Assembly (NCBI GenBank): GCA_017959385.1
Contig: JAGDAS010000142.1
Coordinates: 1-33,049, forward strand
Source of the DNA: Paludibacteraceae bacterium
Lineage (GTDB): Bacteria; Bacteroidota; Bacteroidia; Bacteroidales; Paludibacteraceae
Direction: 5' to 3'
DNA: 33,049 bases
Made by a program: the position numbers and the translations under genes. Under the pieces are notes generated by a model. The model searched no databases. It was given only the letters and a program-made list of their open reading frames with translations, and was not told the origin of the DNA. This document shows positions 11,604 through 29,984 of this stretch, one piece after another. The number at the start of each line of letters is the position of its first letter. Position 1 is the first letter of the stretch.

Positions 11604-11611
11604 TAACTTTG
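11604..11611 (+). promoter_or_regulatory. Bacteroidota -7 box (TAACTTTG) before the giant repeat protein
   Basis: An exact TAnnTTTG match, 28 bases before the start at 11640. It faces away from the minus-strand box at 11510, so the 153-base gap 11487-11639 carries two divergent promoters and a long A/T-rich stretch between them. I see nothing else in the gap. Confidence 0.7.
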
Positions 11612-11639: not shown

Positions 11640-14600
11640 ATGAAGTCACTAAAAAAACTGATTACCCTCGGGTTGTCTGTACTGACATGCCTGTCCGCGA
11701 CCGGGCAGCAGATCAATTCGGATACGCCCAACCTAGACTTCTCCCTGGGCAATTTCGAGCACTGGAAACTCTACACCGGCTGGTTTGAACGCGACGATGC
11801 GGCCACCTATACCGACGACGAAGGTCTGCATGAGGTCTATTACTACGACGAATGGCAACCCTTCACCTGGGATCCCGCTTACGAAAACCTGCAAATTCCG
11901 CGTATCAGCCGTTTCCAGGCCATCAACACCCACTCGGCCGACCCGGTGCTCTCCTGCTACAACACGCTCTACACCACGCCGGAGGGCTATTCCTCCGCCG
12001 GACGTATCGGCGGTCCGACCCTGGCCGAAGGCAAAACTCCGGAAGGCGTATGCACCGAACATGCCGCCGCCGAAAAAATGGAATACGAATTTGAGATTAC
12101 GGAGAACACCGTATTGCTTACCTGCCAATACGCCTGTGCTCTGCAAGCTCCTGAAACACAAGGCGAGAACCACCGCGGACCGCGCATCCCCTACTTCCTG
12201 ATGAGCATCAACATCGTGGATCCGTCCTCGGGCGATGTAATCTCCAAGGCCACCTGCGGTGAATTCGTAGCCGACGCCGACTCGACCAAGACCGGCATCA
12301 TGACGCGCAACACGAACATCTGTCCGCTGGGGTCGCTGCAATCCATGACCCGGCAATCCTACTACGTCTATCGCGACTGGACTACCGAATACATCTATTT
12401 GGGCGACTACATCGGTCAAACGGCCCGCATCACCCTGATCACGCACGACTGTCTGCAGGGATTGGGCAGCGGGCATCCCAATGCAGGCAGCCACGAAGCC
12501 TACGGCTATTTCCGCGGCGAGACACGCTCCCTGGCGCTGACCCCTTACGCCTGCGGCGATGCCGACGCCACCATTTCGGCACCGGAGATGTTCGACTCCT
12601 ACCAATGGAGCCGGAGCGACAACATTCCCATCACGGTCGATCCCGCCCATCCGCATACGGTGACCATCCCGCGCGCCAGCATCACCGAAGGGGTGGTTTA
12701 CTACTGTAAAGTCACCAAAGGTTGTTTCACCACCACGCTTTCGACCGAACTCAATCCGGTCATTATCCGGCCCGATTTCACTTACGAGCAGCGCTGTCTG
12801 GGCGAAATCGCCTTTACCGACCAGACCACCGTGGAAAACGACATCATCACGCTGGCCATCTGGTACTACGGCGACGGCAGCGACGTGGACTACAATCCGG
12901 CACCGCAGCACAGCCACACCTACGAGAATCCGGGCAACTACACGGTGAAACTGACCCTCCAGACCAAGACCGGCTGCCAGATGGAGCGCAACTTCCTGGT
13001 CAATGTCAAGGCCTTCCCCGCCATCAGCATTGACGGCGAGGACCCCTGCTCCGGCGCACAGAACCGCATCTACCTCATTGGAGCAGGTTCCATGGCCCAT
13101 TGGAAATGGTACCGCAAAGGCGTGGAAATGACCGGACGCAACGACCGCACCTATGTGGACGACGTCCTCGTTTCGGACGACGGCATGACCGTGTACCGCG
13201 TAGTGGCACAAGATGCCGCCGGTTGTGAATACACCACCCAGAAGGAAATCACTCCGAAACAACTGCCCTCCGTCTATATTCAGGCCGATCCGCAGGTCTG
13301 CTTCGGGGATCCTGTCACCCTCACGGCCATCTCCAACGCCAATATCTACGATTGGATCTCGACCAATGTCACCACCAAAACGCTGACCACCACACCGTCC
13401 GACACCACCACTTATCAGGTTATCGTGACCGGTGCCAACAACTGTCAGGACACGGCCGCATGGACGGTCAACGTACTGGATCTGCCCACCTTGGAGATTA
13501 CCGGCAACACCACTTTTTGCGAAGGCACCTCCACCCAATGGACCGTATCGGGTGCGCGCAATTACTATTGGAAAAATGCATTGGGCGACATCGTTTCCAA
13601 CACCAACCGTCTGACTGTACTGACCGCAGGCCCCTACACCGTATATGCCACCGATGTCAACAACTGCAAGGCACAGTTGAGCAAAACCGCTTATGCCGTT
13701 CCCAGGCCGGAACTTTCGTACGATTACGAGCCGGCCTGCGTGGGCGACAACTACCGGGTCCGTCTGGAGGGTGCGGTCAGCTACCAGTGGTCGGACGGTT
13801 CGACCGACGAAATCCGTACCGACATCACAGCGGTCAACTCCATCCGGACCTACACGGTAGTAGGACGTGACGGTGACTGTGAATCAAGCCTCAACATCCG
13901 TTTGGACTACCATCCGCTGCCCCGCGTGCGGATCCAGGGCGATGACAAGATCTGCTACGGTTCGCCCGTACCCGCCGTACTGACCGCCTCCGGTGCCTCC
14001 CATTACCGCTGGGAGCACGGTACAATTGCCAACCCGGTACAGGTGTCGCCCTCCGACAACGCCACCTACACGGTGGTGGGTACCGACGCGAACGGTTGCC
14101 GGGGAACCGCCAGCTTCGATGTCACCGTTCTGCCGTTGCCTGTTGTATCCATCAGCGGTCCCGATTCGACCTGCTTCAACACCCACGTCAACCTGACCGC
14201 CTCGGGTGCCGCCACCTACACATGGACCACAGGAGAAACGGGTGCGGAATACCGTACCTCCGATCTGACCGCCACCCAAACCTTTACGGTTGCCGGCACC
14301 GACACCTACGGCTGCACCGCACGCTCCTCCCACCGGGTGATTGTGAAAACAAAGCCCACAGTCACGTTGACCGGCCTGACCAAAATCTGCGAAGGCGAAA
14401 CCTTCCGTATCAACGCATCATCGGCTACCGCCACCTCCTACCAATGGGAGGAGAACGGCACACCGCTGAGCAACCGTACCGCACTGTACACCCACTTGGC
14501 CGACAACAACCTGTCTCTTTCGCTGCAGGGTTTCCTGAAGGGTTGCCCTTCGGACAAAATCGACACGTTGTTGCTGGTGAAACGCAAACCCTTTGTCTAT

Positions 14601-17600
14601 ATCAACGGACCGGAGACCATCTGCCTGAACGACACGGCCCACTTCCATGCCTCCAATGCGGAGAGCTACCTGTGGCTGCACAACAACTCTCCGCTCGACT
14701 CGCTGGTGGTTTCGCCCATTTCGGCCACCTCGTACCGCTATACGCTACGCGGTACTACCGATGGATGTTCCAGAGACACCACGATCACACTGCAGGTACT
14801 GCCACTGCCGCAGTTCCGCGTGGAAGGCAACACCGAATACTGTCTGAACGAACAAATCAACCTGACGGCCACCGCCACCGAGGTATATACCTACACTTGG
14901 AAGGACTACGGAACCGGTGCGGAATTCCAAACCTACCCCGATGCCGTGGGTAACACCACCTACCAGGTCACCGCAACGGATCTGCACCAGTGTGCCTCCA
15001 GCAAACCCGTTACCGTACGTATCAAGCCCATTCCGGACGTGCAACTGACCGGTATCCCCGAAGTATGTGTGGGCGACTGGTTCCGTATCACCGCCAACAA
15101 CGCACAGTCCTACACCTGGCAGGACGGAAGCACCCAGGAATCTTATACGTTGCAGGCCGAAAAAGACTCACTGCTCAAGGTAACCGGTTGTTCCAACGGC
15201 TGTTGCGCCGAAGCCCGCATACAGCTGACCGCCAAGCCCAACCCAACGGTCACCATCAACGGCAAACAGCGTATCTGCTCGGGCGACGAGGTAACCCTGA
15301 CTGCCAGCAGCCTGACCGAAGTAGCCTTTGAGTGGTCGCACGGCCCCACGGGCGCCACCATTTCGGATGCGCTTTACTCCGACAACACCTACCGGGTACG
15401 CGCCACCGCACGCAACGGTTGCAGCGGCGAGGACACCTACACCATCCATGTGGATACGCTTCCGCAAATACGCATTTCGGGCAGAAGCTCCATGTGCAAC
15501 GGCGAAACGACCGATTGGGAGGCCAGCGGTGCGCAAAGCTACATTTGGGAACGGGGTACCAACACGGAATACGCCGGCGAGCGCTATCCCATCAACACCT
15601 CTGTCACACGCAGTTATTCGGTCTATGGTGTCGATGGAAACGGTTGCCGCAACACGGCGCAGAAAACCATGACCGTCATTCCGCTGCCCGTGCTCACCTC
15701 ATCGGGCAACACCATCATGTGCAAGGGCGACACCTTCCATATCGCTGTGCAGGGAGCCGACACCTACCTATGGCAGAATGGAAGTACCGAATCGACCTTC
15801 GAATACATTGCCGCCAAAGACACGCTTTGTTCCATCGTGGGAACCAAGAACGGATGCTCCAGCCAACTGGATGTACAGCTCTACTCGCTGGAGAATCCCT
15901 ATGTAACCATCACCTGCAGCGTCCCGGTCATCTGTGCCGGAGACACCACCACGCTCGAGGCGAACGGTGCCGACATTTACCGCTGGTTTGACGAAAGTAC
16001 GGACGACTACAACATTGTCACCACCAAGCAGAACACCACTTATACGGTAACGGGCTACAACATCTACAACGACTACGGCGGCAAGCAATGCAAGGGGACC
16101 GCCCGCTTCGACCTGCGTGTCAATCCGTTGCCCGAAGTGCTGATCCAGGGTCCCGACCACCTGTGCGAAGACGGTGAACTGACACTGACAGCCACGGGCG
16201 ACCCCGTACAGATGTACCTGTGGCAGGACAAAGTGCCCGGAAGCGAGCGCAGTTTCTACAATACACAGATTGACAACGGCGGCATCTACCAGGTCAAAAC
16301 CTACAGTGTCACCGGTACCGATGCCAACAACTGCTCTTTCACCACCCGGCACGAAGTAACGGTGTACGCTTATCCCGACATGGGCTACCTGGGACGTACC
16401 GACCTGTGCTACGGCGACTCGCTGCTGCTCACCATCACCGGCAATGCCGACACCTATTCATGGGCACACGACGGCTCCACCAGCGACTATCTGGCCACCA
16501 TTGCCCAGAATGTCACCCTCTACCAGGTAACCGGCACCCTCAACGGCTGCAGCACGCTGCAGGACATCCCGGTCATCATTCGTCCGCTGCCCATCGTACT
16601 GATTGACGGTGTATCCGAGATCTGCGCCGGCAACGACATCACCTTGTCCGCCAGCGGTGCCGCCACCTATTTGTGGAACACCTACACGCACGACACCACC
16701 GCCGACATCACCGTCCGCCCGCACGAGGAGGTCAACACCTACTCGGTGGTCGGATTCTCGGAATACAACTGCCAAAGTTCGCGCACCAAGCAGGTAGTGG
16801 TCCACCCGCTTCCCGTATTCCGCGTGGACGGTGACAAGAACATCTGCTTCGGTGGTGCCGCCACCATCCAGGCCATCGGCAATGCCGCCAGCTATACTTG
16901 GAGTACGGGAGAGGTGGCCGAAACCATCCATCCCGTCATTGACCAGACCAGCACCTTCCAGGTAACGGCCGTCAGTGAGCACAATTGTACCTCGGAATCC
17001 TCTTGGACCGTGGTGCCGGTGGAGGATCCCGAATTGGACTTCGGAGGAGAGACCGTGGTCTGCGTCGGCGACACCATCCACCTCATCGGACAGGGTGCCA
17101 CCTCCTACCGCTGGCCCGACGGCTCCACGGGTACGGAATACACCCAGGTGATGAAAGAAACCACCGACATCATCATGCAGGGAACCAAGCAGAACTGCAC
17201 GGTTTCGCTGCCCATCCATATTGAAGCCATGTCCACCCCCAACCTGATGGTCAGTGGTCCGGGTGCGGTATGCCGCAACCACGAGTTCACGCTTACCGCG
17301 GCGGGCGCAAAGTCCTTCAGTTGGAGCACCGGCGAACAGACGCCCGACATGACCACCGCCATCAACGTACCTTCGGTCTTCTTCGTAACCGGCCGGAGCG
17401 GCAACTGTTCGGCCACCGTCCAGGTGAATGTGGACCTGCTGCCCGCCCCCAAGACCTTCGTACGGCTGGATGACTTCAGCGTATGCCCCGGACGCGCCGA
17501 TTCCGTCATGCTTTCCGTTACCGGCGCCGACCGTTACGAGTGGTCGGCTCTGCCCGACAACGCAGCCGTTACCGCCACCATGTCCGACCAGGCGCGTGCC

Positions 17601-18230
17601 ACCATTCCCGGCCCCTCCTGGATTTATGTAGTCGGTTATTCGACAGACGGATGCGAAAAGAAGGACTCCATCTATATCGGCGAGCTGCCCGATCCCGAAT
17701 TCCATTTCGAAGTCAACCCGAACTGGATTGAAGAAGGCAACTCGACCGTACGTCTGACCGGTGTGCAGCCTGGAATCGGCAGCACCTGGTATTGGACACC
17801 GGGCGACCATACGCCCGAAATCGTCGGCCAGCAGTTGGAGCACACCTACGAACTGGACAAGGTGGACGAGGCCTTCCTGGTAACCGTGCTGGCGGTTGAC
17901 AAATACGGCTGCCGCTTTGAGGGCGAGGCACCTGTCTATGCCTGGAAGGAATTCTGGATGCCCAACGCCTTCACCCCCAACGATGACGGCACCAACGATG
18001 TGTTCCGTTTCTTCGGCGGGCGCTATGTAACCGAATTCTCCTACACCATCTTCAACCGTACCGGCGACATTGTTTTCCAGGGCAATGCCATGGACGACGA
18101 ATGGGACGGCACCTTTGAGGGGCAGAAATGCCCGAAGGGGGTGTATGGTTGGGCCGCCACCTTCAAGTGCGACGCCTACGGTTTGGTCAAAACCGGAACC
18201 CGTAAAGGACATGTCAATCTGATACGATGA
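11640..18230 (+). CDS. Giant cell-surface protein: PKD and 21 Ig-like repeats with T9SS type-B (gliding-motility-associated) C-terminal domain
   Basis: A 2196-residue secreted protein. Signal peptide 1-22 (basic start, hydrophobic core, cleavage near SATG/QQ). Residues 23 to about 300 form an N-terminal domain I do not recognise. A first Ig-like unit (about 304-375) is followed by a PKD domain (about 376-460: WYYGDGS, HTYENPGNYTVKL). Then 21 tandem Ig-like repeats of about 74 residues each span about 461-2022, each with one cysteine near the start (CxGD) and one near the end (NGC). Next is a PKD-like unit, then at about 2104-2196 the CHU_C/gliding-motility-associated domain (FWMPNAFTPNDDGTNDVF, then KGVYGW and KGHVNLIR). 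That domain targets proteins to T9SS through a SprF-type partner, and such a gene follows with an ATGA overlap. The protein is probably an adhesin or surface fibre; the ligand is unknown. Confidence 0.9.
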   Translation: MKSLKKLITLGLSVLTCLSATGQQINSDTPNLDFSLGNFEHWKLYTGWFERDDAATYTDDEGLHEVYYYDEWQPFTWDPAYENLQIPRISRFQAINTHSADPVLSCYNTLYTTPEGYSSAGRIGGPTLAEGKTPEGVCTEHAAAEKMEYEFEITENTVLLTCQYACALQAPETQGENHRGPRIPYFLMSINIVDPSSGDVISKATCGEFVADADSTKTGIMTRNTNICPLGSLQSMTRQSYYVYRDWTTEYIYLGDYIGQTARITLITHDCLQGLGSGHPNAGSHEAYGYFRGETRSLALTPYACGDADATISAPEMFDSYQWSRSDNIPITVDPAHPHTVTIPRASITEGVVYYCKVTKGCFTTTLSTELNPVIIRPDFTYEQRCLGEIAFTDQTTVENDIITLAIWYYGDGSDVDYNPAPQHSHTYENPGNYTVKLTLQTKTGCQMERNFLVNVKAFPAISIDGEDPCSGAQNRIYLIGAGSMAHWKWYRKGVEMTGRNDRTYVDDVLVSDDGMTVYRVVAQDAAGCEYTTQKEITPKQLPSVYIQADPQVCFGDPVTLTAISNANIYDWISTNVTTKTLTTTPSDTTTYQVIVTGANNCQDTAAWTVNVLDLPTLEITGNTTFCEGTSTQWTVSGARNYYWKNALGDIVSNTNRLTVLTAGPYTVYATDVNNCKAQLSKTAYAVPRPELSYDYEPACVGDNYRVRLEGAVSYQWSDGSTDEIRTDITAVNSIRTYTVVGRDGDCESSLNIRLDYHPLPRVRIQGDDKICYGSPVPAVLTASGASHYRWEHGTIANPVQVSPSDNATYTVVGTDANGCRGTASFDVTVLPLPVVSISGPDSTCFNTHVNLTASGAATYTWTTGETGAEYRTSDLTATQTFTVAGTDTYGCTARSSHRVIVKTKPTVTLTGLTKICEGETFRINASSATATSYQWEENGTPLSNRTALYTHLADNNLSLSLQGFLKGCPSDKIDTLLLVKRKPFVYINGPETICLNDTAHFHASNAESYLWLHNNSPLDSLVVSPISATSYRYTLRGTTDGCSRDTTITLQVLPLPQFRVEGNTEYCLNEQINLTATATEVYTYTWKDYGTGAEFQTYPDAVGNTTYQVTATDLHQCASSKPVTVRIKPIPDVQLTGIPEVCVGDWFRITANNAQSYTWQDGSTQESYTLQAEKDSLLKVTGCSNGCCAEARIQLTAKPNPTVTINGKQRICSGDEVTLTASSLTEVAFEWSHGPTGATISDALYSDNTYRVRATARNGCSGEDTYTIHVDTLPQIRISGRSSMCNGETTDWEASGAQSYIWERGTNTEYAGERYPINTSVTRSYSVYGVDGNGCRNTAQKTMTVIPLPVLTSSGNTIMCKGDTFHIAVQGADTYLWQNGSTESTFEYIAAKDTLCSIVGTKNGCSSQLDVQLYSLENPYVTITCSVPVICAGDTTTLEANGADIYRWFDESTDDYNIVTTKQNTTYTVTGYNIYNDYGGKQCKGTARFDLRVNPLPEVLIQGPDHLCEDGELTLTATGDPVQMYLWQDKVPGSERSFYNTQIDNGGIYQVKTYSVTGTDANNCSFTTRHEVTVYAYPDMGYLGRTDLCYGDSLLLTITGNADTYSWAHDGSTSDYLATIAQNVTLYQVTGTLNGCSTLQDIPVIIRPLPIVLIDGVSEICAGNDITLSASGAATYLWNTYTHDTTADITVRPHEEVNTYSVVGFSEYNCQSSRTKQVVVHPLPVFRVDGDKNICFGGAATIQAIGNAASYTWSTGEVAETIHPVIDQTSTFQVTAVSEHNCTSESSWTVVPVEDPELDFGGETVVCVGDTIHLIGQGATSYRWPDGSTGTEYTQVMKETTDIIMQGTKQNCTVSLPIHIEAMSTPNLMVSGPGAVCRNHEFTLTAAGAKSFSWSTGEQTPDMTTAINVPSVFFVTGRSGNCSATVQVNVDLLPAPKTFVRLDDFSVCPGRADSVMLSVTGADRYEWSALPDNAAVTATMSDQARATIPGPSWIYVVGYSTDGCEKKDSIYIGELPDPEFHFEVNPNWIEEGNSTVRLTGVQPGIGSTWYWTPGDHTPEIVGQQLEHTYELDKVDEAFLVTVLAVDKYGCRFEGEAPVYAWKEFWMPNAFTPNDDGTNDVFRFFGGRYVTEFSYTIFNRTGDIVFQGNAMDDEWDGTFEGQKCPKGVYGWAATFKCDAYGLVKTGTRKGHVNLIR
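13024..17708 (+). repeat. Array of 21 tandem Ig-like protein repeats (about 220 bases each)
   Basis: Each unit encodes about 74 residues with the pattern G-x4-C-x-G-[DE], then A-x-[ST]-Y-x-W, then T-Y-x-V-x-G-T-x-x-N-G-C, then V-x-P-x-P. I counted 21 units by their paired cysteines. Units 4, 7, 10, 13, 16 and 19 share a subtype: an x4 G-to-C spacing before the second cysteine and, in most, a DGST-like turn after the tryptophan. This points to a higher-order period of three. At DNA level the units are diverged; only short identities such as GGTGCCGCCACCTA (units 6 and 17) are obvious. Confidence 0.85.
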
Positions 18231-19240
18231 AGCGGGCGGGATGGTATAAATGGATCGTAGGGTGGCTGATGCTGTCGGTCGGATGGACCGTGCAGGCGCA
18301 GGACTATACCTTCTCCAACCACAACATCGTCCCCTTCAGCCTCAACCCGGCCACGGTGGGCGGTGCCTATGCCGTCCGGTTCGGGCTCAACTACCGGCTG
18401 CAATGGCCCATGCTCAGCAACCACTACCACACCGTCCGAGCCTCGTGGGATCAGAACGTGTACAAGCACATGTGCTCCGTAGGCGCCGCCTACACCTACG
18501 ACAACATGGCCGACGGCACCTTCCAATCGCACGAAATCGATGTCGTCTATGGCCATACCATCCGCCTGACCCGCGACCAGAAACACTTCCTGCGTTTGGG
18601 CATCCAAGGCACGCTGTTCGCCAATTTCGTGGATTTCTCCAAAATGGTTTTCACCGATCAGCTCAACCCCTACGACGGATCGGTCTATGCCAAGACGGTG
18701 GAGAGTTTTGAGACCGACAGCCGCTACTTCCCCGACTTTTCGGCCGGCATCAACTACCTGTTCGAACACCGGTTCAATGTCGGATTCGCCGTATATCACC
18801 TGGCCCAGCCCGACTGCGGCTTTGTGGAGAATGCGGAGTACCTGCCCCGCCGCTACGTCGCCACCATCCAGTTCACGCAGGACCTGCACACCAGCCGCGG
18901 CCTGCTGACCTACCGCAAATCGGACAGCTACTTCTTCGCCAACGCCAACTACCAGCACCAGGGCACCAAGCGGGGCAGCATGTACGAGTTCAAACAGCTC
19001 TACATCGGCGCGGGCATCTGCTTCCAGCCCATCATCGGCGGCGTGTCGTTCCGTACCGACTTCACCGACCTGCACACCGTGTCCTTCATGGTGGGCGGCT
19101 ACTACAAAGGCCTGCAACTCTACTACATCTTCGACCTGTATGCGTCGAGCAAGAAGAACGGCTCGTGGTCGAACGAGATTTCGTGCATTTACACCATTCC
19201 CACCAAAAAGAAGGACCTCTGCCCCGTCGTTTACTGGTAA
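18227..19240 (+). CDS. PorP/SprF family type IX secretion system outer membrane protein
   Basis: A 337-residue protein with a signal peptide ([15 protein letters not shown]..., cleavage near VQAQD) and the typical PorP/SprF start [22 protein letters not shown], close to the family's usual phrase of being seated a few residues after the signal and reading LNPAxxG. The rest alternates aromatic and polar residues as expected for an outer-membrane beta-barrel ([35 protein letters not shown]). SprF-type proteins are needed for secretion of individual type-B-CTD proteins. The ATG overlaps the stop of the giant repeat protein as ATGA, so the two are translationally coupled and this is very probably its dedicated partner. 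Confidence 0.9.
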
Positions 19241-19289: not shown

Positions 19290-19297
19290 TACCTTTG
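19290..19297 (+). promoter_or_regulatory. Bacteroidota -7 box (TACCTTTG) before panB
   Basis: An exact TAnnTTTG match in the AT-rich gap after the PorP/SprF gene, 23 bases before the panB ATG. It shows that the longer open frame beginning at 19165 is not the real start. Confidence 0.75.
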
Positions 19298-28472: not shown

Positions 28473-29984
28473 ATGAAACTCACTTTACAACTCCTGCACG
28501 ACCTGCTTTACACCGGCGCCCGTCTGTCGGTACCCGCCCAAACCTTGAACCAAGTGCAGGCCTGTTACGATTTTCTGGAAACCTTCTCCAACAATAAAAT
28601 CATCTACGGCATCAACACCGGCTTCGGTCCGATGGCCCAGTGGCGTGTGGACGACCAATACCTGAAGGATCTGCAGTACAACCTGATCCGAAGCCATGCC
28701 ACCGGTGCAGGCAAACCGCTGGAGGATGAATATGTCAAGGCGGCCATGGTGGCCCGTCTGGGTTCGTTCATTCAAGGCAAAAGCGGTGTGCATCCCGAAA
28801 TTGTCACGCTGCTGCAGGGATTCATCAACCGCAACATCATTCCGTTTGTACCGGAACATGGTTCGGTGGGGGCCAGCGGCGATTTGGTCCAACTCGCCCA
28901 CATCGGTCTGTGCCTGATCGGCGAAGGGAAGGTGCACTACCAAGGCGTATGGCGGCCGACGGCCGAAGTGCTGCGTGAGAACGGATTGCAACCGCTCAGC
29001 ATCCATATCCGTGAGGGGCTGAGCACCGCCAACGGCACTTCGGTAATGACCGGTATCAGCGGCATCAACCAGCTGCATGCCGAGAATCTGCTGCGTTGGG
29101 CCATCCTGACGAGTGTGTGGATGAACGAAATCGCCCAAAGCTACGACGACTGCATGTCGGAGCCGCTCAACAGCTGCCGCCGGCACAACGGACAGCAGTA
29201 TATCGCTGCCGAGATGCGCCGGATCGTCCAATCGTCCCAATGCCTGAAAAAGCGGGAACACGCCCTGTACGACAGCAGTCACAAGGACGAGAAGGTGTTT
29301 CACGCAAAGGTGCAGGCCTATTATTCGCTGCGCTGCACCCCGCAGATTCTGGGCCCCGTTTACGAAACGCTGATGAACGCCCGCGAAATCATCGAAGACG
29401 AGTTCAATTCGGCCAGCGACAATCCGATTGTCGATCCCGAAACCCGCAATGTCTATCACGGAGGCAACTTTCACGGTGACTACATTTCGCTGGAGCAGGA
29501 CAAGGTCAAAACGGCCTTGGTGCGCCTGACCATGACGGCCGAGCGCCAACTCAACTACCTGTTCCACGACCGGATCAACAACATCCTTCCTCCTTTCTTG
29601 AACCAGGGGACTCTGGGATTGAACTACGGCATGCAGGCTTGTCAGTTTACGGCCACTTCGACCACGGCCGAGAGCCAGACGCTGGCCATGCCCAACTATG
29701 TACACTCCATTCCCAACAACAACGACAACCAGGACATTGTATCCATGGGCACCAACTCCGCCCTGCTCTGCAAGCATGTCATCGACAATGCCTATCAGGT
29801 TATGTCCATCCTCGTCATAGCGCTGGCCCAGGCGACCGACTGCCTGCAGATGCGTCCGCGCCTGAGCGGAGAAACCGGCCGGGTATATGACGAGGTACGC
29901 CGGCTGACTCCCACCATTTCGGACGACACTCCCTTCTACGACGACATCGAACAGGTGGAGGCGTACCTGAGGAGTCGGAAATAA
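28473..29984 (+). CDS. Aromatic amino acid ammonia-lyase (HAL/PAL/TAL family), tyrosine ammonia-lyase-like
   Basis: A 503-residue member of the MIO-cofactor lyase family, which removes ammonia from histidine, phenylalanine or tyrosine. The MIO tripeptide is A134-S135-G136 (GSVGASGDL), the lid tyrosine lies in IYGINTGFGPMAQ, and the conserved FNSASDNPIV is present. From memory the chain is closest to Flavobacterium johnsoniae TAL: it shares LQYNLIRSH, STTAESQ, YVHSIPNNNDNQD and VSMGTNSA, where HutH proteins have different phrases. The selectivity pair at 74-75 is Ser-His, which taken alone would point to histidine. No hut genes (hutU, hutI, ftcD) are near. It is followed 10 bases later by miaA and has its own promoter. 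Product p-coumarate is the best guess. Confidence 0.85.
   Translation: MKLTLQLLHDLLYTGARLSVPAQTLNQVQACYDFLETFSNNKIIYGINTGFGPMAQWRVDDQYLKDLQYNLIRSHATGAGKPLEDEYVKAAMVARLGSFIQGKSGVHPEIVTLLQGFINRNIIPFVPEHGSVGASGDLVQLAHIGLCLIGEGKVHYQGVWRPTAEVLRENGLQPLSIHIREGLSTANGTSVMTGISGINQLHAENLLRWAILTSVWMNEIAQSYDDCMSEPLNSCRRHNGQQYIAAEMRRIVQSSQCLKKREHALYDSSHKDEKVFHAKVQAYYSLRCTPQILGPVYETLMNAREIIEDEFNSASDNPIVDPETRNVYHGGNFHGDYISLEQDKVKTALVRLTMTAERQLNYLFHDRINNILPPFLNQGTLGLNYGMQACQFTATSTTAESQTLAMPNYVHSIPNNNDNQDIVSMGTNSALLCKHVIDNAYQVMSILVIALAQATDCLQMRPRLSGETGRVYDEVRRLTPTISDDTPFYDDIEQVEAYLRSRK

Follow-up and report, generated by a model that had tools for sequence, protein, structure and literature searches.

Type-B substrates of the T9SS need cognate carriers for their export and remain bound to them (PMC12618676, PMC9143113). 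The closest described system is SprB/SprF of Flavobacterium johnsoniae, in which the 669 kDa SprB, a giant repeat adhesin with a type-B C-terminal domain (CTD), is encoded in one operon with its PorP/SprF carrier and has no PorE neighbour. This adhesin moves. The cysteines in the tail of SprF, arranged as C-x-C, form a disulfide with Cys343 of GldK by which the adhesin is fastened to the gliding track as it moves, and gliding depends on both cysteines. The exchange scheme proposed for F. johnsoniae needs an intramolecular disulfide in the donor, and the counterpart of GldK Cys343 in Porphyromonas gingivalis is Cys356 of PorK (Liu et al. 2025, PMC12635249). P. gingivalis also provides the PorP-PorE-PG1035 complex, in which a type-B protein is held on a PorP-family barrel and which includes the peptidoglycan-binding PorE. 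The Fjoh_3952/Fjoh_3951/Fjoh_3950 system of F. johnsoniae likewise combines a type-B substrate and its cognate carrier in one operon, includes a PorE homologue and is static. According to a hypothesis of Gorasia et al. (2022, PMC9143113), a type-B protein that moves has only its carrier to hold it, and one that stays in place is held by PorE in addition. In the work of Paillat et al. (2025, PMC12618676) a static example has a PorE neighbour where the moving ones have none.

The locus described here encodes a giant protein and a carrier which, as judged from their sequences, appear to form a single-cysteine variant of the SprB/SprF type and not to belong to the PorP-PorE class. Like SprB/SprF it joins a giant repeat adhesin with a type-B CTD to a PorP/SprF carrier, has a cysteine in the periplasmic tail of that carrier, keeps the partner cysteine in GldK/PorK and has no PorE gene beside it. 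Unlike SprF, the carrier has one tail cysteine (in CPVVYW) rather than C-x-C, and unlike SprB the giant is made of Ig_7 repeats with a lectin-like head and has 2196 aa; SprB is seen to move, and for the present fibre movement is plausible. It differs from PorP-PorE-PG1035 in its tail cysteine and in having no adjacent PorE gene, and in the latter respect also from the Fjoh_3952 system. The pairing of giant and carrier is itself already known to be common; what is new is the invariant single-cysteine tail, the fact that a gut lineage conserves it, the way it contrasts with the PorE class, and the accompanying set of gliding genes in the genome.

The giant protein and its gene

The window, a stretch of 33,049 nucleotides, is one whole contig (C133) of the assembly of a Paludibacteraceae gut bacterium. 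The pair and the parts of the giant are placed as follows.

11640..18230, + strand: gene of the giant type-B T9SS substrate, 2196 aa, coordinates and frame confirmed; the product consists of a signal peptide (recognised by inspection), the head domain, an Ig/PKD region, 21 Ig_7-like repeats and the type-B CTD
11721..12545, + strand: N-terminal head domain of about 270-275 aa, kept across genera, a predicted CBM-like jelly roll
13023..17699, + strand: array of 21 Ig_7-like repeats (PF19081), residues 462-2020, about 70-83 aa each
17958..18227, + strand: type-B CTD (gliding-motility-associated C-terminal domain; TIGR04131, CHU_C), residues 2107-2196 of the giant
18227..19240, + strand: gene of the PorP/SprF-family outer-membrane carrier, 337 aa, 14 predicted strands

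An earlier note on this DNA had described a 2196-residue protein with a type-B domain whose gene overlaps a PorP/SprF gene by ATGA, and the coordinates and frames are exact, with the shared ATGA located at 18227-18230. The giant scores 49.5 bits against TIGR04131 (cut-off 35) over residues 2107-2196, which places it among the type-B substrates, and it also exceeds the Pfam cut-offs for CHU_C, Ig_7 and PKD. These three are the only Pfam families matched, and no enzyme domain was found by Pfam. An Ig-like segment and the PKD domain precede the repeat array, in which most repeats have one cysteine near the start and another near the end, and one weak Ig-like segment lies between the array and the CTD. 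The CTD contains QKCPKGVYGW near its C-terminus.

The head domain is 94% identical in the nearest relative and 31-38% identical among the relatives, with an invariant core. Pfam and PDB sequence searches with this domain returned nothing usable, and it was comparison of folds alone that helped. Its structural model is a beta sandwich (pLDDT 83.7, pTM 0.86) whose structural neighbours, with Z scores of about 7-10, include CBMs (a porphyran-binding module, CBM61 and CBM16) and, in the same range, phage tailspike domains, MAM domains and the cleaved adhesin domains of Lys-gingipain. The head is therefore predicted to adopt a CBM/galactose-binding-like jelly roll fold. The beta sandwich is a common fold, and a sugar ligand is a reasonable guess from fold similarity alone. 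The N-terminal domain, which had earlier been called unknown, now has a predicted fold. The proposal of a fibre or adhesin made at the same time agrees well with the lectin-like head, the Ig repeats and the absence of an enzyme domain.

Two matches to the -7 promoter element of Bacteroidota bear on how the pair may be transcribed.

11604..11611, + strand: TAACTTTG, matching TAnnTTTG, 36 nt before the start of the giant
19290..19297, + strand: TACCTTTG, a TAnnTTTG element between the carrier gene and panB, probably the own promoter of panB

The giant and carrier genes probably form a two-gene transcription unit of their own, because such elements stand before the giant and between the carrier and panB. 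The plus strand of the whole window has nine TAnnTTTG matches, and no canonical -33 element was recognised for TAACTTTG. Among the housekeeping genes of the window (panB, PGK, Mur ligase, DEAD helicase) there is an aromatic amino acid ammonia lyase at 28473-29984.

Linkage of giant and carrier in relatives

Relatives of the carrier were found in 43 of the 150 genomes of the family that were searched, and in 20 stretches around them each carrier of the subfamily lies directly behind a protein with a type-B CTD. The close relatives are MAGs of Paludibacteraceae or Bacteroidales, mostly from the rumen, hindgut or faeces of herbivores. When 84,980 species genomes were scanned with the head domain, 39 loci emerged, and where giants with this CTD at their end have enough DNA behind them, the carrier comes after them. 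The proteins in L116, L128 and L131 act as a natural control in that they have the head domain with another C-terminus and no carrier behind it. In these three the C-terminus is type-A-like, from which it follows that the head is exchanged between export classes. In L065 there is a frame break inside the giant.

The linkage is thus constant in relatives, as expected of the dedicated type-B substrate and carrier that the earlier note had proposed, and the unlinking in close relatives which it had named as evidence to the contrary is absent: every subfamily carrier with enough flanking sequence lies behind a giant. The distances between CTDs and those between carriers are correlated (Mantel r 0.93 for 36 pairs in two classes and 0.67 for 24 pairs of the class found in the window), which is as expected of cognate pairs but is partly inflated by shared descent. 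Quartets of paralogues agree between CTD and carrier in 21 of 26 cases. The CTDs paired with CPxxYW carriers have an invariant cysteine (in the Cx.GVYG[WY] region) which is not fixed in the CTDs of carriers that end in FFC[YHR].

Another part of that proposal, that the overlap would keep the two proteins in fixed proportion, finds no support. The junction between giant and carrier ranges from -4 to about +23 nt in those relatives where the start codon could be judged, so relatives do not keep the overlap as such, and in L105 and L113 a single carrier stands downstream of two tandem giants. A one-to-one proportion is consequently not general, and fixed stoichiometry by ATGA is rejected as a general feature. 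In L111, which like L105 and L113 comes from a Paludibacteraceae MAG, one giant is flanked by a carrier on each side.

Tail cysteine, PorK and PorE

The carrier scores 102.1 bits against PF11751 (cut-off 22.3) and 124.3 bits against TIGR03519 (cut-off 90.55). Its model is of moderate confidence (pLDDT 68, below 50 in the tail) and is a predicted barrel of 14 strands, the last of which ends at residue 325; it resembles OmpG, FadL and chain 8gl6_F of a T9SS complex. Both the profiles and the barrel agree with membership of the PorP/SprF family, and no sequence in the PDB was matched by the carrier profile. As the number of strands is even, the C-terminus should lie in the periplasm.

19205..19237, + strand: periplasmic C-terminal tail of the carrier, residues 327-337, with CPVVYW and the single invariant Cys332

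The tail ends in CP[VIM]xYW in all 30 relatives compared, and among the complete carriers from another set of loci all 27 end in CPxxxW. An artefact of the search pattern is ruled out as the source of the motif, as the 30 loci were picked by whole-protein similarity alone. The carrier therefore has neither the twin cysteines of SprF nor the cysteine-free tail ending in PR[FY]F that is typical of the PorE class. Tail cysteines are present in other SprF-like proteins of the phylum too. In twelve further genomes of the family there is a second carrier type, with the ending FFC[YHR], which likewise stands behind a type-B protein.

The partner cysteine is present as well: in an alignment with 9ots, Cys369 of the PorK encoded by this genome falls on Cys356 of P. 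gingivalis PorK and thus corresponds to Cys343 of GldK. With a single tail cysteine the exchange mechanism of F. johnsoniae cannot work unchanged, a problem that is shared by P. gingivalis PorG. The PorG of the present genome (L022:9897-10643) ends, like that of P. gingivalis, in a single tail cysteine (NKYCK), and P. gingivalis PorG is a precedent for a partner with one cysteine.

The relation between tail cysteines and PorE was surveyed in 13 other Bacteroidia genomes, using all of the 99 PF11751 matches that were listed for them. Each match was taken with 4 kb on either side, and it was recorded whether the tail contains a cysteine and whether an OmpA-domain (PorE-like) gene lies on the strand of the carrier; seven carriers in fused or cut frames were excluded. 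A tail cysteine is found in 4 of 30 carriers adjacent to PorE versus 39 of the 62 others (Fisher 6e-6; permutation within genomes 2.5e-4; the carriers are related to each other and both p-values are hence optimistic). The frequency of cysteine in the barrel core of the surveyed carriers is 0.24%, and 25 of the 30 PorE-adjacent carriers end in PRFF or PRYF. There is no PorE-like gene beside any of 51 CPxxxW carriers, the only OmpA-domain ORF being a distant one on the opposite strand in L112, and the window contains no OmpA-domain (PorE-like) ORF. No statement of the contrast between tail cysteine and PorE was found in the literature searched. In the survey, PorP/SprF domains also occur in unusually long frames of 452-1529 aa (L256, L257, L261, L265, L272, L277 and L298); the ends of L256 and L257 resemble the end of an OmpA domain, and these may be natural fusions of carrier and PorE.

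The genome under study (1,662,857 bases in 161 contigs, about 97% complete) has five PorP/SprF genes and eleven matches to the type-B CTD, nine of them over the cut-off. Contig C8 holds a second giant and carrier (L020:3-8188) which adjoin ATP synthase genes; this giant, cut by the start of the contig, has at least 2373 aa, and its carrier is 61% identical to that of the window with a tail ending in CPVTYW. The two giant-linked carriers have a tail cysteine, as does the carrier on contig C39, which has no type-B neighbour on the available contig. The tails of the PorP in the porPKLMN operon and of the PorP beside a PorE/OmpA-like gene on contig C104 have none.

The operon with porP, located on contig C44, has the order porP-porK-porL-porM-porN-porG, with porL assigned by position alone, and a GldM match is present. 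SprA is split into two pieces (C62:9489-13277 and C114:3504-4712) which both lie at contig ends and lack the middle of the profile, probably as a result of an assembly gap. In the C62 piece a TAG stop is found close to where the contig ends. An absence of core T9SS genes, which would have spoken against the original proposal, is contradicted by SprA, GldM, PorK, PorN and PorG. On other contigs GldD (203.7 bits, cut-off 120) is preceded by GldE (469.1, cut-off 376.05), and GldB (219.6, cut-off 190) and GldH (119, cut-off 78.7) also exceed their thresholds. One lipoprotein is GldJ-like: it gives a full-length match to TIGR03524 of 382 bits, short of the cut-off of 458, and scores higher with GldJ than with any other family, GldK included (245). 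Comparable GldJ-like hits are also seen in relatives that lack a carrier of the window type. Coverage of the GldJ match was dropped as a sign of gliding in relatives, since a match is represented by its best-scoring piece alone; that of the relative G145, listed as partial, turned out to be full-length when scanned whole. The earlier remark about the lack of gliding genes in the window holds to the extent that it was checked but carries no information, and to set gliding aside from the window alone was incomplete given a genome with GldB, GldD, GldE, GldH, a GldJ-like protein and GldK-N.

Proposed anchoring and possible movement of the fibre

It is proposed that the giant would be exported by Sec and then via the SprA translocon of the T9SS, where the SprF-like barrel would collect it through the type-B CTD and keep it. 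The product would be a fibre of about 24 Ig-type domains on the cell, possibly with the carbohydrate-binding-like head at its tip binding glycans. Cys332 of the carrier would most likely be disulfide-bonded to Cys369 of PorK, as SprF is to Cys343 of GldK, so that a covalent bond would connect the adhesin with the motor-driven PorKN(-GldJ) structure, be it a ring or a track, and not with peptidoglycan via PorE. This reading, an adhesin of the SprB/SprF type on its own carrier whose tail cysteine links it to PorK and the motor-driven structure, is probably correct, and movement of the fibre is plausible.

That the adhesin is static, exported and held by binding of the CTD to the barrel while the tail cysteine serves assembly, folding or a partner other than PorK, appears rather unlikely. 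It could draw on the static type-B substrates of F. johnsoniae (PMC12618676), on the presence of one cysteine in the tail instead of two and on the literature searched, in which no documented glider from Paludibacteraceae was found. However, the static example in F. johnsoniae has a PorE neighbour and the window pair has none, the tail is invariant with its one cysteine across genera, the cysteine class avoids PorE, and PorK retains the partner cysteine. It is less probable still that carrier and giant merely co-occur and that the carrier is a general type-B shuttle which also serves the other type-B proteins of the genome. The surplus of eleven type-B CTDs over five PorP/SprF genes would allow for it, and shared shuttles are known in F. 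johnsoniae (PMC12618676), but linkage is constant across genera, the CTDs of the paired giants are a class of their own which co-diverges with the carriers, and for the remaining type-B proteins the orphan carrier on C39 is the likelier partner.

The preferred reading, in which the fibre is joined to PorK, is compatible with a stronger form of itself in which the pair is a true counterpart of SprB/SprF and the cells glide, for example on plant fibre or mucus. The cysteine tail of the carrier and the combination of GldB, GldD, GldE and GldH over their cut-offs with a GldJ-like protein, GldK-N and SprA in one small genome point towards gliding, and GldD and GldJ occur in fewer human oral genera than the T9SS core does (PMC11705866). 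Against this, the GldJ-like protein remains below its cut-off, GldM and hits resembling GldJ are found widely across the family, also in genera without a carrier of the window type, and the gene set is read from a MAG alone, so that gliding proper is for now an unlikely outcome.

A wider interpretation can be put forward tentatively. Carriers across the Bacteroidota might fall into two anchoring classes, one cysteine-tailed and bound by a disulfide to the motor-driven PorK/GldK, the other partnered by PorE and bound to peptidoglycan, and Paludibacteraceae of the rumen and gut, which are not known gliders, might have carriers of the first class alongside a set of gliding genes and actively move giant lectin-tipped fibres. 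Beyond a few model species, little has been tested about how gut Bacteroidota anchor their long surface fibres. A tail cysteine or a PorE neighbour is a simple rule at the level of sequence that would allow a prediction of whether an adhesin is anchored to the T9SS motor or to the cell wall. In combination with GldB, GldD, GldE, GldH and a GldJ-like protein in a 1.66-Mb genome of the rumen type, this rule makes motor-driven movement of adhesins, and perhaps gliding, testable in the Bacteroidales of the ruminant gut.
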